From contig CACEGG010000002.1 in the NCBI GenBank assembly GCA_902559035.1, positions 1 to 51,845 of the forward strand: a stretch of DNA of 51,845 nt. The letters are read 5' to 3'. Shown piece by piece: positions 34,553 to 38,315 of this stretch. Position 1 is the stretch's first letter. Every line of letters starts with the position of its first letter. Source of the DNA: an uncultured Bacteroidota bacterium. Lineage in GTDB: Bacteria > Bacteroidota > Bacteroidia > Flavobacteriales > Flavobacteriaceae. The position numbers and the translations under genes are program-made. The notes under the pieces are model-generated. The model worked only from the letters and a program-made list of their open reading frames with translations. It searched no databases and was not told the DNA's origin.

Positions 34553-34626
34553 GGTCCTATAGCTCAGTTGGTTAGAGTAGCTGACTCATAATCAGTTGGT
34601 CCCTGGTTCGAGCCCAGGTGGGACCA
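34553..34626 (+). tRNA. tRNA with anticodon CAU (Met or lysidine-type Ile)
   Basis: The 74-nt gene folds as a standard cloverleaf. The acceptor strands are GGTCCTA (34553-34559) and TGGGACC (34619-34625), with discriminator A at 34626. The anticodon arm has the 7-nt loop ctCATaa, with anticodon CAT at 34587-34589. The T-arm is CTGGTTCGAGCCCAG-like, with the conserved GGTTCGA. The CCA end is not encoded. The CAU anticodon fits elongator Met or Ile2 (with lysidine), and I cannot choose between them from the sequence alone. Its 3' end is the left border of the direct repeat of the island. Confidence 0.95.
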
Positions 34627-34663
34627 CCCTTAAAACCCCTCTTCTTGAGGGGTTTTTTGTTTT
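34614..34663 (+). repeat. attL-type direct repeat (tRNA 3' end plus terminator)
   Basis: This 50-bp sequence is identical to 37196-37245. It starts with ccaggtgggacc inside the tRNA T-arm and acceptor stem and ends with the poly-T of the terminator. Divergence begins at once on both sides. Confidence 0.93.
34632..34658 (+). terminator. Rho-independent terminator of the tRNA
   Basis: The stem aaaacccctc (34632-34641) pairs with gaggggtttt around the loop ttctt, and a T-run follows. It begins six bases after the tRNA and is duplicated at 37214-37240. Confidence 0.92.
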
Positions 34664-34683
34664 TTATCCTAAAAACACTCTTG

Positions 34684-34762
34684 GGGTTCCATTTAGGGTT
34701 CCATTTCAAGTAGTTTTAAATGTTAAAAAGTGAGTTAGCTAACTCACTTTTTTGTGGAACCC
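34684..34762. repeat. Left cluster of GGGTTCCA/TGGAACCC 8-mers
   Basis: Two direct copies of GGGTTCCA (34684-34691, 34696-34703) and one inverted copy TGGAACCC (34755-34762) surround palindrome A. A degraded fourth copy (ggggcttca, from 34764) follows. The same 8-mer occurs four times at the right end of the island. Confidence 0.8.
34725..34752. terminator. 28-bp perfect palindrome A, likely terminator of the R-M operon
   Basis: The 14-bp arms meet at the centre and include the core GTGAGTTAGCTAACTCAC. The outer A5/T5 runs make a U-tract on either strand. On the minus strand it lies 39 bases after the endonuclease stop codon. The core is a diverged copy of palindrome B at 37080-37097. Confidence 0.7.
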
Positions 34763-34790
34763 CGGGGCTTCATTTTATTTGTAAAGTTTG

Positions 34791-35357
34791 TTATGATAAA
34801 TTTAAATTTCCGGTTTTAACTGGTTTAATATTGTTTTTTAAAATCAACTCTTTAAAAATACTGAACCTTGGTCTTCTTTTTTGTAACTGTTGATCTTTAA
34901 AAGTTTGATCAGAATTAACTTTATGACTATATATCAGCTGATTTTTAATTAAATAAATATCAAATAAGCCATCCCACTTACCTTCCCGATAAAAATCAAC
35001 AAAATATAATTTATCCCAAATTGATTTTGGTCCAAAAGAGGTTAAATCTGGAAGAACACTACATGCTTTTACTTGAATTCTTTCTTTAAAAATTGGATCA
35101 TATGCATCAAAAGAAGTATTGGCTCCCGAAATACTTTCAGTAATTCTAAAACAATTCATTTCAAGACAAAAAGCACTTTCTGAAAGACCTTCTGGAAGGT
35201 TAACTCCCCTCGCCTTCATTGAGTTTAAGTTTTTACACAACTCTCTCCACGCAAGGTAAATTGAGAATAATTTTAACCTGTCAGAATTATCAAACTTTAT
35301 AACTTGAATATCAAAGTCTCCCTCAGGAAGATATATTTTTTCTTTTTCAACCTTCAT
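34791..35357 (-). CDS. Type II restriction endonuclease, Bsp6I-like
   Basis: The 188-residue protein matches, from memory, the Bsp6I endonuclease family along most of its length: ARGVNLPEGLSESAFC, SGANTSFDAYDPI, KERIQVKACS, LTSFGPKSIWDKLYFVDFY, FDIYLI, and a TFKDQQLQKRRPRFSIFKE tail. A PD-(D/E)xK-type centre is plausible with Asp84 and QVK (Gln95, Lys97). Bsp6I cuts GCNGC, and the same site is a prediction here. It is the last gene of the operon, 60 bases after the methyltransferase. A 10-bp inverted repeat lies just before its ATG. Confidence 0.82.
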   Translation of the reverse strand: MKVEKEKIYLPEGDFDIQVIKFDNSDRLKLFSIYLAWRELCKNLNSMKARGVNLPEGLSESAFCLEMNCFRITESISGANTSFDAYDPIFKERIQVKACSVLPDLTSFGPKSIWDKLYFVDFYREGKWDGLFDIYLIKNQLIYSHKVNSDQTFKDQQLQKRRPRFSIFKELILKNNIKPVKTGNLNLS

Positions 35358-35358
35358 T

Positions 35359-35397
35359 GAATCTATTTATTTAACAATTTAGTCAGAAAATAGATTC
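35359..35397 (-). promoter_or_regulatory. Inverted repeat before the endonuclease start codon
   Basis: The arms gaatctattt (35359-35368) and aaatagattc (35388-35397) are perfect complements with a 19-base spacer. In the minus-strand mRNA the hairpin ends one base before the ATG at 35357. It could limit ribosome entry for the endonuclease or act as an operator. Its 60-bp intergenic location separates methyltransferase from endonuclease. Confidence 0.6.
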
Positions 35398-35417
35398 TAG
35401 ACAAAAAGCCGAGCTAT

Positions 35418-36407
35418 TTAGAATAACTGGTCTTTAATCGGACAAGCTCCACCATTTAAAACTGTCATGATATTTTTGGAAATTTGATGTAAAACTGGAA
35501 CACTAACAGAATTCCCTGCTTGTTTATAAAGCTGACCGTTTGATATTTTAGGAAATTTATAATTTTTTGGAAAACCCTGGAAAAGAAAACACTCTTTAGG
35601 AGTTAATTTTCTAATACCATGAATTGTTTTTATCAAAGGCACATTATGTCCTCCTGTTCCCATATTAGCGGTTAGAGTTGGACAAACTTTTGATTTATTT
35701 TCTCTTACATATTGTCTTCTCCATTGATAAACCGTATCTGTTTTGGTAATAGATTTATTGAGTTCTTCAAACATATATTTGTCTTCTCTGTAATAATACT
35801 TCTCGTCTACTTTTTCTTTATGTATAATAGTTGATATGTTTTTACTCAAAATTTCTTTTTCTGGGAAACTAAATCGTTCATCACAATCTGGAAATTCATC
35901 ATAATCAAAAGCAACAATAAAAATTCTTTCTCTGTTATGAGGGATATTACCATAATCTTTGGTGTTTAAAACCTTTGCTTGAAAAGAGTAATTACGAGAA
36001 AGTATTTCTTTCTTAATAATTTTAAAAGTATTTCCCCTGTCATGATTTACTAAGTTTTTTACATTCTCAAATAGAACAACTTTTGGTCGCATTTCATCGA
36101 CAAAATCTAACATCCTAAAAAAATGATTACCTCTAGGGTCTTTAAATCCCTTTCTGTATCCCGCAACTGAGAATGCTTGACATGGAAACCCACCAGCTAT
36201 TATATCAACCTTTTTTAGTTTATCCAAATCTAAAGACATTACATCTCCCTCATGAAGTTTATGTTTAAAGTTTTCTCGATAGGTTTTACAGGCGTTTTTG
36301 TCAAACTCATTCGCCCACAAAATTTCAAATCCACTTTTTATAAAGCCTAAACAGATTCCTCCCACGCCAGCATACAAACTACCAACAGTATATTTATTTT
36401 TCATCAC
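35418..36407 (-). CDS. dcm: DNA (cytosine-5)-methyltransferase of the R-M system
   Basis: The 329-aa protein has all the C5-methyltransferase motifs: motif I YAGVGG (12-17), motif IV GFPCQAFS with catalytic Cys76, motif VI ENV (114-116), motif VIII GNIPHNRERIFIV, a target-recognition region (about 190-265), and the closing motifs KECFLFQGFP and YKQAGNSVSVPV. It should methylate the site cut by the adjacent endonuclease, GCNGC if the Bsp6I relation holds. Its first 14 bases overlap the upstream 169-aa gene. The methyltransferase-before-endonuclease order favours host protection during entry. Confidence 0.95.
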   Translation of the reverse strand: MMKNKYTVGSLYAGVGGICLGFIKSGFEILWANEFDKNACKTYRENFKHKLHEGDVMSLDLDKLKKVDIIAGGFPCQAFSVAGYRKGFKDPRGNHFFRMLDFVDEMRPKVVLFENVKNLVNHDRGNTFKIIKKEILSRNYSFQAKVLNTKDYGNIPHNRERIFIVAFDYDEFPDCDERFSFPEKEILSKNISTIIHKEKVDEKYYYREDKYMFEELNKSITKTDTVYQWRRQYVRENKSKVCPTLTANMGTGGHNVPLIKTIHGIRKLTPKECFLFQGFPKNYKFPKISNGQLYKQAGNSVSVPVLHQISKNIMTVLNGGACPIKDQLF

Positions 36408-36903
36408 TGAAGTTATTTAACATTTCAATTGATTTAAATATTTTTCTATTTAAATTATCTATTTGGTAGGATTTAGGGTTCTTTAAAAGATTCCCAGATG
36501 AATATCCTATTATTTTATAGTCCAAAACAGAACGACAAACCACATAGATGAAGGGTAATTTTAAGTCCTTCTCAAGTGCGGGAAAAGAACCAAAGTCAGA
36601 ACAAATAATTCTAAACTTTTGATTTTTATATTCAACCTCAGGTTTGAAATTATCTAAATCTATTTTTAATAGTGAAATAGGTTTAATTTTTAAATAACTA
36701 CAAACTGATAAGTATGATAATATCATTTTTGTTTTATTAAGTCTAAAAGACTCTCCCTCAAACTTATCTCTAAGCTTTCCTAAATCAGAAAGTCCTAAAT
36801 GAGAAACAATTAATTCATCTATTTCTTTGGTTTGGTATTTAGAAAACTTTTCAGTGTGAAATGTTCTCAATTTACTTCCAATTTTAAGTAAAAACTCTTT
36901 CAT
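36394..36903 (-). CDS. Unknown 169-aa protein of the R-M operon
   Basis: I do not recognise a family. The 169-residue protein has a basic helical N-terminus (KEFLLKIGSKLRTFHTEKFSKYQTKEID). A helix pair near 44-70 (GKLRDKFEGESFRLNKTKMILSYLSVCSY, in parts) is followed by a sheet-rich half containing KFRIICSDFGSF, LPFIYVVCRSVLDYKIIGYSSG. It has no PD-(D/E)xK, helicase or classical C-protein HTH that I can identify. It is the first gene of the operon and overlaps the methyltransferase start by 14 bases. It could be a regulator, accessory subunit or antirestriction-linked protein. Confidence 0.75.
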   Translation of the reverse strand: MKEFLLKIGSKLRTFHTEKFSKYQTKEIDELIVSHLGLSDLGKLRDKFEGESFRLNKTKMILSYLSVCSYLKIKPISLLKIDLDNFKPEVEYKNQKFRIICSDFGSFPALEKDLKLPFIYVVCRSVLDYKIIGYSSGNLLKNPKSYQIDNLNRKIFKSIEMLNNFSDEK

Positions 36904-36935
36904 GATTCTTTAAAAACCTAAATTAAAATATTAAT

Positions 36936-36949
36936 CACAAATATCTGTG
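36936..36949 (-). promoter_or_regulatory. Imperfect palindrome, candidate operator of the R-M operon
   Basis: CACAAATATCTGTG is symmetric at 12 of 14 positions. Its position, 33-46 bases upstream of the first gene, is right for a repressor or controller site. No binding protein is identified. Confidence 0.35.
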
Positions 36950-37004
36950 TTTATTAAAAATTTCTGTTTAAAAAATCTTCTTTTAAATATAATGTCTTAA
37001 AACC

Positions 37005-37026
37005 AAGTGTAACTTCTTTTACACTT
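37005..37026. repeat. 8-bp hairpin upstream of the R-M operon
   Basis: The arms aagtgtaa and ttacactt are perfect complements with the loop cttctt. It is one of four inverted structures stacked in this 290-bp region. Confidence 0.5.
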
Positions 37027-37079
37027 TCTAAAAAAAAGGTTCAAAATATGTAAAATGTAAATCATGATATTTTAAAAAT

Positions 37080-37097
37080 GTGATTCAGCTGAATCAC
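37080..37097. repeat. Palindrome B, GTGATTCAGCTGAATCAC
   Basis: This 18-bp perfect palindrome has A-rich and T-rich flanks (aaaaat and ttttt). It is a diverged copy of palindrome A, and the arms differ at two base pairs that are both compensated. Both copies are followed after the T-run by GTGGAACCCC. Confidence 0.8.
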
Positions 37098-37104
37098 TTT
37101 TTGG

Positions 37105-37144
37105 TGGAACCCCAGGGTTCCATAATGGAACCCTACGGGTTCCA
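37105..37144. repeat. Right cluster of four alternating GGGTTCCA/TGGAACCC 8-mers
   Basis: TGGAACCC at 37105-37112, GGGTTCCA at 37115-37122, TGGAACCC at 37126-37133 and GGGTTCCA at 37137-37144. They can fold as two small hairpins or as one long near-palindrome of about 42 bp spanning 37104-37145. No gene covers the region. Confidence 0.85.
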
Positions 37145-37195
37145 CTAAGTTTTGTAACTGTCTGATAATCAGTATCTAATAGGTGTGGTTATAGT

Positions 37196-37245
37196 CCAGG
37201 TGGGACCACCCTTAAAACCCCTCTTCTTGAGGGGTTTTTTGTTTT
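37196..37245 (+). repeat. attR-type direct repeat (tRNA 3' end plus terminator)
   Basis: This 50-bp sequence is identical to 34614-34663. The bases before it (ggttatagt) keep a weak likeness to the T-arm of the tRNA (ggttcgagc). After it the ordinary chromosome resumes with the chitinase gene region. It marks the right boundary of the island. Confidence 0.93.
37214..37240 (+). terminator. Duplicated copy of the tRNA terminator
   Basis: The same stem and T-run as at 34632-34658. Here it stands between the island and the 3' end of the chitinase-like gene and may block readthrough between them. Confidence 0.88.
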
Positions 37246-37289: not shown

Positions 37290-38315
37290 TTAATTTCCAC
37301 AAAGATTGGTTGTTTCAACACCAAGATCTGTATAAGTTTTATGTATGGTTTCTAGTAAAGAATATTCTGAGAATGAATCTGCTCCAAGTCGCCAAATCAT
37401 GATTCCACTCAAATTTTGAGATGCCAATTTAACTTTATTTGCAATTGTTGGTCTACCATTGTAGTACTTATTTCCGACGTTATCTTTATCTGAGTTAGAA
37501 ACATCGGAGTCAACCATTGAGCCATATATGAATGATTTAACAGTTGTTGAATTTTGGAAATCATAACCATAAAAAGGAACCCCTAAAGTGAGCTTAGAGG
37601 GATTAATTCCTGCTTTGTTTTTCCAAAAATTGATACTTTGTTTTGCGTGGTTGTAAGAGCTGTGTTGACCAGGAGATGGATTCCAAGGACCAGTATAATC
37701 ATAAACCATTAAGTTTATAAAATCCAACGCATTTAATGCTTCGTCAGTGATAAGTGAATATCTATTTTCTCCTGGATAAGCTGCTGTTATACCTTTTGAT
37801 TGTGCTTTAAGTGCATCTCTAAGTTCAATCACAAAATCACTGTAACCAGTTGTAACATACTGCCACTCTAGATCAACATCTACTCCATCAAAACCATTAT
37901 CTAGCACATATGAAACTATTTTTTCAATTAAAATTGGTCTATCCTGAGGACTTGCTAGAAAATTTTTCCATGTGTTTGCCACTTCATTTGATAACCAACC
38001 TCCGGCTATTGATATATAAATCTTGATATTTGGGTTTTGTGATCTAGCAGTATCCATTACATTTTTAAGTAAATCTCCAGAGTTTCCCGGAAGAACCATT
38101 GTTCCATCGGTTTGTGGATTAGCAAACGCAATATTTAAGTGTGTGACCTTACAATATTGAATTTTATCATTTAAAGAAAACGAGCCGGTAGAATAATATC
38201 CTACGACTCGGGCCTGATTAGAGAATAAGTCACCATTTTCAATAACATCAACATCGTCAACATTACTACATGAAATTATAAGAAAGGAGAATATAAGGTA
38301 TAATTGTTTTTTCAT
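37290..38315 (-). CDS. GH18 chitinase-like lipoprotein
   Basis: The 341-residue protein has a lipoprotein signal (FSFLIISCS, Cys16). The TIM-barrel GH18 motifs are SIAGGW (strand 3) and DGVDVDLE (143-150), where Glu150 is the catalytic acid with the assisting Asp two residues before. Later motifs are FINLMVYDYTGPW and LGVPFYGYDF, with ISGIMIWRLGAD at the end. It should cleave beta-1,4-GlcNAc linkages at the cell surface. Together with GldH it is consistent with chitin use, though no chitin-binding domain is seen. The next gene, an EEP nuclease-like protein, is 20 bases upstream. Confidence 0.95.
   Translation of the reverse strand: MKKQLYLIFSFLIISCSNVDDVDVIENGDLFSNQARVVGYYSTGSFSLNDKIQYCKVTHLNIAFANPQTDGTMVLPGNSGDLLKNVMDTARSQNPNIKIYISIAGGWLSNEVANTWKNFLASPQDRPILIEKIVSYVLDNGFDGVDVDLEWQYVTTGYSDFVIELRDALKAQSKGITAAYPGENRYSLITDEALNALDFINLMVYDYTGPWNPSPGQHSSYNHAKQSINFWKNKAGINPSKLTLGVPFYGYDFQNSTTVKSFIYGSMVDSDVSNSDKDNVGNKYYNGRPTIANKVKLASQNLSGIMIWRLGADSFSEYSLLETIHKTYTDLGVETTNLCGN

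Follow-up and report, generated by a model that had tools for sequence, protein, structure and literature searches.

A small restriction-modification element without an integrase at a flavobacterial tRNA-Met gene, probably one of a family of cassettes moved in trans

How does a small DNA element that carries no recombinase come to lie in a tRNA gene? The question is raised by a stretch of DNA from an uncultured Flavobacteriaceae bacterium, bases 1-51,845 of contig 2 (hereafter the window; the source genome comprises 1.58 Mb in 40 contigs and is 88.6% complete), in which a restriction-modification (R-M) operon is enclosed by two copies of a tRNA 3' end. The original prediction described a perfect 50-bp direct repeat, made of the tRNA 3' end and the terminator, with its copies 2,582 bp apart, and we found it exact at both coordinates; the whole direct repeat is 60 nt long at 95% and contains the exact 50-bp core, 2582 bp being the start-to-start distance. 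The element in the window, bounded by the flavobacterial tRNA-Met core, is a block of 2.58 kb. The displaced tRNA 3' fragment lies downstream of the tRNA in the same orientation, and the 3' end of the tRNA is now provided by element sequence (the anticodon CAT was called as tRNA-Met; the alternative tRNA-Ile2 also fits CAT). Between the repeats there are, as had been described, the R-M operon and non-coding repeats, namely three open reading frames (ORFs) of at least 60 aa, every one on the minus strand, together with paired short repeats, hairpins and a copy of the anticodon arm. The integrase is indeed not inside the element, all PF00589 matches of the genome being elsewhere. We show below that such elements recur at this tRNA, and they are probably non-autonomous cassettes integrated in trans by the integrases of larger tRNA-Met islands.

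The integration itself can be read from relatives. A congener (G015) has one tRNA core only, and the window flanks, when joined by script, align to it unbroken over 1263 bp at 87.6%; its GH18 gene ends ~45 bp past the single repeat, as it does past the repeat in the window. G015 is thus the empty site that had been proposed as a check, and the window block is an integrated element. A terminator-like match of 25-32 bp, without the tRNA core, is also present in G015 beyond the GH18 gene. When the tRNA and terminator were used as a query, all 22 genus genomes were matched, partly via other tRNAs, and matches starting from tRNA base 1 and at least 77 bases long were found in 11 of the 22. A remnant of the window element is present in another species, G021, where a contig shares 307 bp with the window at 99.35%, covering the 3' part of the tRNA, the left end of the element and the end of the endonuclease gene, without a second core. 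Since the xer regions of the window genome and G021 are only 73.6% identical, the window element has moved between species recently.

Islands with like ends, which had also been suggested as a check, were found in 14 further genomes, with an equal core and end layout and mostly other cargo. Two are integrase-less islands of the same genus at the same tRNA, in G017 (2344 bp) and G002 (1877 bp), with unrelated cargo. When genome_contigs, in which 84,980 species are represented by one genome each, was scanned for the right-end signature, 13 stretches matched, from Flavobacteriaceae (6), Candidatus Arcticimaribacter (1, Flavobacteriaceae), Cryomorphaceae BACL29 (1) and uncultured Bacteroidetes (5); four of them were genus genomes already included, and in four (L133, L134, L141 and L144) the right end only lies within the stretch. 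In a family sample the exact tRNA 3' end was present in 31 of 299 genomes; the flanks of all 31 were covered, and eight of them (G000, G002, G085, G101, G157, G170, G207 and G300) have core-bounded integrase-less elements, while the contigs of G087, G171 and G291, among others, stop at the tRNA site. Assemblies were also broken within or beside the tRNA repeat at the contig ends G002:C22, G002:C29, G006:C3, G019:C22, G020:C60 and G007:C14; because of such breaks, draft genomes will undercount the cassettes.

For the analysis we took 20 intervals between adjacent cores, from 15 genomes including the window genome. Two intervals with an integrase inside, in G013 (L051) and G268 (L236), were left out, as were three intervals with a weak second core and arms judged unmatched (two in G239, L210, and one in G223, L213), and L232, which comes from the same genome as L167. 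The 20 elements are 641-4565 bp long, either stand alone or are arrayed in twos or threes, and carry varied cargo. A local profile built from 28 sequences detected an integrase in none of them (0/20); PF00589 matches likewise lay outside the elements where that family was searched, G101, G157, G170, G207 and G300 being covered by the local profile only.

The ends of these elements share a characteristic architecture. In 19 of the 20, an exact 7-mer is repeated at 12 bp within 25-175 bp past the left core, and each of the other spacings from 6 to 24 bp occurs in at most one element; in shuffled integrase-island intervals a repeat spaced by 12 bp arises by chance in 0.4-0.65%. The left letters are found again in the element's own right end in 18/20 (at most one mismatch), and in 15/20 as exact 8-mers, whereas exact agreements averaged 2.3 and never exceeded 8 when the pairing was permuted 20,000 times; this test takes related elements as independent and so overstates the number of independent cases. 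Nine letter types were seen: GGGTTCCA (that of the window), GTGTACCA, GGGTACCA, GAGTTCCA, GTGTTCCA, CCGAACC, GTCGAACC, AGGACAA and TAGAGTGA. The right-hand sites are mostly inverted pairs, ~60-63 and 70-72 bp before the core, many with a second pair further out. Letters that differ across elements and agree within one are as expected for arm-type sites of differing integrases, and we infer that the paired repeats are integrase arm sites. By eye, the right ends of L217, L226, L233 and L171 also contain a putative degenerate reverse-complement copy of the tRNA T-arm/acceptor ~140-150 bp before the core (for example TGGTCCAAATGGGACTCGAACTAGGG in L233a), and the elements of G002, G017 and AG-313-A15 have a related motif, AGTCCAAACCGGACT, also inverted and about as far from the core.

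A second case of recent transfer comes from two single-cell genomes listed under different genera, AG-453-G16 and AG-349-I20 (handles G085 and G452), which carry arrays of three and two cassettes. They have in common a cassette of a 322-aa protein (85.3%) and an R-M cassette of 3.6 kb (95.2% over 3643 bp), but the order in the arrays and the neighbours differ. The Xer proteins of the two genomes, paired by score rank, where a paralogue mix-up is possible, are 45% identical. The same cassette beside different neighbours in two genera argues for movement of the cassette alone. The R-M operon of the 3.6-kb cassette is homologous to that of the window (endonuclease 74%, methyltransferase 81%, third protein 50%) and lies between GTGTACCA arms, not the GGGTTCCA arms of the window, implying that cargo and arms are not tied together.

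The cargo of the window element itself, listed with the other features in Table 1, is of the Bsp6I type, consisting of an RE_Bsp6I endonuclease together with a C5 methyltransferase; the specificity of this type we take to be GCNGC. The third protein of the operon has ~50% identical counterparts in two other elements; its structural model reached a predicted local distance difference test score (pLDDT) of 60, and gave no PDB match at E 0.001. Among the three ORFs there was no phage-related Pfam match and no conjugation gene, two of them belonging to R-M families and one being without a family. Across the 20 elements, C5 methyltransferases were found in five. Bsp6I-type R-M is present in three (the window, AG-349-I20 and AG-453-G16, the latter two by similarity to that of the window), and AG-313-A15 carries an EcoO109I-type R-M system. 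AG-453-G16 also has a methyltransferase pair, one identified by Pfam and the other by eye, with a NOV_C protein. Other cargo includes a trypsin-like protease, an S-adenosylmethionine methyltransferase and the 322-aa protein, which matches the candidate defence family PDC-S18 (E 1e-89), as well as a dehydrogenase-like protein and small membrane-like proteins recognized by reading the sequences.

Table 1 Features of the integrase-less element in the window and of its flanks
Feature	Position	Strand	Remarks
tRNA-Met(CAT), integration target	34553..34628	+	ARAGORN; sole tRNA found in the window
Left repeat copy (attL), tRNA 3' end and terminator	34614..34663	+	Core CAGGTGGGACC from 34615
Putative left arm-type site 1, GGGTTCCA	34684..34691	+	
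Putative left arm-type site 2, GGGTTCCA	34696..34703	+	Spaced 12 bp from site 1
Left hairpin, palindrome with T run	34725..34752		Immediately past the R-M operon
Restriction endonuclease, Bsp6I family, 188 aa	34791..35357	-	PF09504 RE_Bsp6I, E 4.3e-21; PADLOC REase_II
C5 cytosine methyltransferase, 329 aa	35418..36407	-	PF00145, E 2.6e-84; M.HhaI in PDB, E 3e-52
169-aa protein, third operon gene	36394..36903	-	No significant family
Right hairpin	37075..37102		
Putative right arm-type site (TGGAACCC)	37105..37112	-	Outer inverted pair
Putative right arm-type site, GGGTTCCA	37115..37122	+	Outer inverted pair
Putative right arm-type site (TGGAACCC)	37126..37133	-	Inner inverted pair
Putative right arm-type site, GGGTTCCA	37137..37144	+	Inner pair; 60 bp before the core
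Degenerate copy of the anticodon arm	37154..37173	+	85%; within the right end
Right repeat copy (attR)	37196..37245	+	Core from 37197; element-side sequence GGTTATAGTC
Host GH18 gene, right flank	37290..38315	-	Ends ~45 bp after the repeat

Which enzyme might act on these ends? The window genome has three PF00589 matches, two of which (~300 aa) are Xer-like (XerC/XerD) by size and score, the third being a 535-aa ORF beside a tRNA-Phe on another contig. At the same tRNA as in the window, the island of G391, 6012 bp long, encodes a 533-aa integrase with an Arm-DNA-bind_5 domain and has GGGTACTA arms at similar distances; G072 has a GGGTACTA pair ahead of a 533-aa integrase, the left end only being in view; and the island of G013, 7558 bp long, encodes an integrase of 551 aa and has CCGAACCA arms. 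Six integrase islands, at tRNA-Met, Phe or Val, were compared, and an exact 7-mer repeat at 12 bp is located between the tRNA and the integrase in five of them. The right ends are also related across the two forms: the right-end arm stretch of the G013 island scored z 13-21 (against shuffles) with three integrase-less CCGAACC elements, and the right end of G391, again against shuffles, scored 7.8 with the G002 element, 5.3 with the window and 3.5 with G017. Integrase-bearing and integrase-less forms with homologous right ends therefore share one site.

The arm pattern was then searched more widely. In the 22 genus genomes it was found in the three known islands only; in 397 family genomes there were 20 matches in 19 genomes, compared with 15 for a reversed-pattern control, and we therefore took pattern matches off the tRNA as chance. 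No integrase lay beside the examined matches in the 397 genomes. In IMG/VR viral contigs neither the right-end signature nor the full right-end pattern was found, while paired GGGTTCCA occurred in four stretches (L118, L119, L120 and L121), of which L118 and L119, to judge by their ORFs, matched by chance; L120 (IMG/VR 3300014818_000298, 47% GC) has three GGGTTCCA copies near one end, two of them 12 bp apart.

A second type of integrase at this tRNA, of 348 aa in G268 (with a pair at 11 bp) and of 349 aa upstream of the tRNA in AG-349-I20, is not the helper we propose. In AG-349-I20 (L166:3008-8640) the 349-aa integrase and TTGCCA-type repeats are bounded by the intact tRNA and by a copy, 49 bp long, of its 5' half, so that this island occupies the other side of the same tRNA. 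We considered as a helper, and rejected, a group of ORFs of 771-827 aa that match the N-terminal part of the G013 integrase within residues 4-123, found in L200/L201 (G000:C7 near 72073-72420), G017, G075, G387, G003, G004, G011 and G087, the G003 copy having an internal stop. By our reading the window-genome copy continues as a succinate-dehydrogenase-like flavoprotein, and Pfam gave FAD-type domains only; in the window genome's ORF, a metabolic enzyme thus appears to bear an extension like an integrase arm domain.

Several observations weigh against movement in trans. The main gap is that none of the 397 family genomes has an integrase with exactly GGGTTCCA arms, and the eight matches of a GKGTWCCA pair after the tRNA core in these genomes had no integrase within ~1.5 kb (0/8). 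The tRNA-Phe integrase, the only non-Xer integrase in the window genome (88.6% complete), has different arms, GAGAACA. The integrase islands are not uniform either: the left pair of G013 is ~170 bp from the core, compared with the usual ~60-80, and at 12 bp an exact 7-mer repeat is missing from G318 (tRNA-Phe). The right end of G391 shows no similarity (z 0.8) to that of AG-313-A15, which has the window's own arm letters. The ends of L179, L225a and L233a match at one mismatch only, and those of L168 and L171 (2/20) are mismatched, a CCGAACC left end being combined with a right end of another type. Neither an excised circle nor a transfer was observed, all data being assemblies; the action of an integrase in trans and the way in which a circle would travel between cells are inferred.

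The original prediction had left two alternatives, that the integrase was lost or that the element is non-autonomous and moved in trans. Loss would make the window element a remnant like a cis-mobilizable element (CIME), that is, a former autonomous island whose integrase was deleted, which kept both attachment (att) sites and is mobile only in cis, when an adjacent island excises and takes it along. Such an origin is described for CIMEs and for 15 ssrA islands of Dehalococcoides that lack an integration module (PMC5704250, PMC3146451), in G391 an island-type right end is directly followed by a GGGTTCCA left end, and L168 and L171 look like hybrids or remnants. However, the cassettes are compact, the local integrase profile found nothing in any of the 20, the end letters match in 18/20, and the neighbours of the shared 3.6-kb cassette differ between two genera, so that we consider a remnant unlikely. 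Movement in trans fits better than loss because integrase-less elements recur, their arm-like sites are mostly matched, there are two cases of recent transfer and no integrase remnant was detected.

The cassettes might instead spread without any site-specific integrase, by DNA uptake and homologous recombination through the common tRNA and terminator. The sites do have repeats of tens of bases in common, but recombination of this kind leaves the paired repeats, the agreement within each element and the spacing unexplained, and megablast of 14-16 kb from the two genera found only the elements and the tRNA/att stretches in common; we regard it as less probable still. A recombinase could also be hidden in the cassette, for example as the 169-aa protein, which has no significant family match. 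Yet tblastn found no relative of this protein in the G002 and G017 stretches, the ORFs of at least 60 aa in AG-313-A15 are a methyltransferase and an endonuclease only, the protein accompanies R-M genes across differing arm letters, and its model, at a pLDDT of only 60, had no recombinase match, which together leave this idea very little room. An ancient tandem duplication of the tRNA end, with no integration at all, has nothing in its favour beyond the repeat itself. It was rejected because G015 is empty and different DNA lies between the repeats in relatives.

If the window element is a cassette moved in trans, it consists of an apparently complete phage-type attachment site (the tRNA core with two-sided arm-type sites) and cargo, without a recombinase. 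A tyrosine integrase from another element, likely one of the larger tRNA-Met islands such as those of G391, G072 and G013, would bind the core and the paired GGGTTCCA sites. It would release the cassette in circular form and insert the circle at the tRNA T-arm, where the cassette's own sequence would rebuild the tRNA 3' end. Because every insertion would create a new site, cassettes would stack in arrays, and the cargo may be insulated from its neighbours by the terminator that follows the tRNA and by the hairpins close to the ends. More broadly, and with somewhat less assurance, we lean towards the view that one Flavobacteriaceae tRNA is an integron-like loading dock, in which cassettes of 0.64-4.6 kb with 1-4 genes copy the att sites of a clade of tyrosine integrases, each arm type having its own helper and being served in trans by passing islands. 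Such a class, delivering R-M and other cargo into small-genome flavobacteria, would be missed by island finders that demand an integrase. It would also provide a natural test of arm-site choice by tyrosine integrases, the core and spacing being constant while the arm letters vary, and a bacterial parallel, for site-specific integration, of autonomous and non-autonomous transposon pairs.

Tycheposons are tRNA-targeted islands with an integrase of their own. In marine picocyanobacteria, tRNA islands are described that carry both an integrase and a serine recombinase, and R-M cargo is known from tmRNA islands. The window element resembles integrase-bearing tRNA/tmRNA islands (Islander, I55-type) in its type of target, its displaced 3' fragment and, for some of them, R-M cargo; unlike it, those islands, as described, bear their own tyrosine integrase (PMC4383910, PMC12595487). 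Since the Islander algorithm filters for an integrase, integrase-less cassettes would be missed by it. Among the top matches listed from one open-access library we found no published account of these flavobacterial cassettes.

Published accounts treat CIMEs as elements that have decayed and are carried along in cis (PMC5704250, PMC3146451). Like them and the Dehalococcoides ssrA islands, the cassettes have attL and attR at a conserved gene, lack an integrase and form tandem arrays (PMC5704250, PMC3146451); unlike CIMEs, they are 0.64-4.6 kb long with mostly matched arm-like sites of several letter types and varied cargo, and one cassette occurs in two genera beside different neighbours. Dehalococcoides has a serine-family integrase, unlike the tyrosine type proposed for the cassettes. 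With integron cassettes and clusters of attC sites lacking integron-integrases (CALINs) they share small cargo units, arrays, the lack of an integrase and mobilization in trans (PMC11389934), which for our cassettes is likely; instead of attC, however, our cassettes have the T-arm core of a tRNA together with phage-like arm sites, and each has its own arm-letter type. The ends of miniature inverted-repeat transposable elements (MITEs) are read by the enzyme of a related autonomous element (PMC11389934), and some right ends here are likewise homologous to those of integrase islands, but the cassettes insert at one tRNA, without transposition, and carry cargo genes. CIMEs and the Dehalococcoides islands without integration modules are thus the nearest known relatives of the flavobacterial cassettes, and CALINs and MITEs are their analogues.

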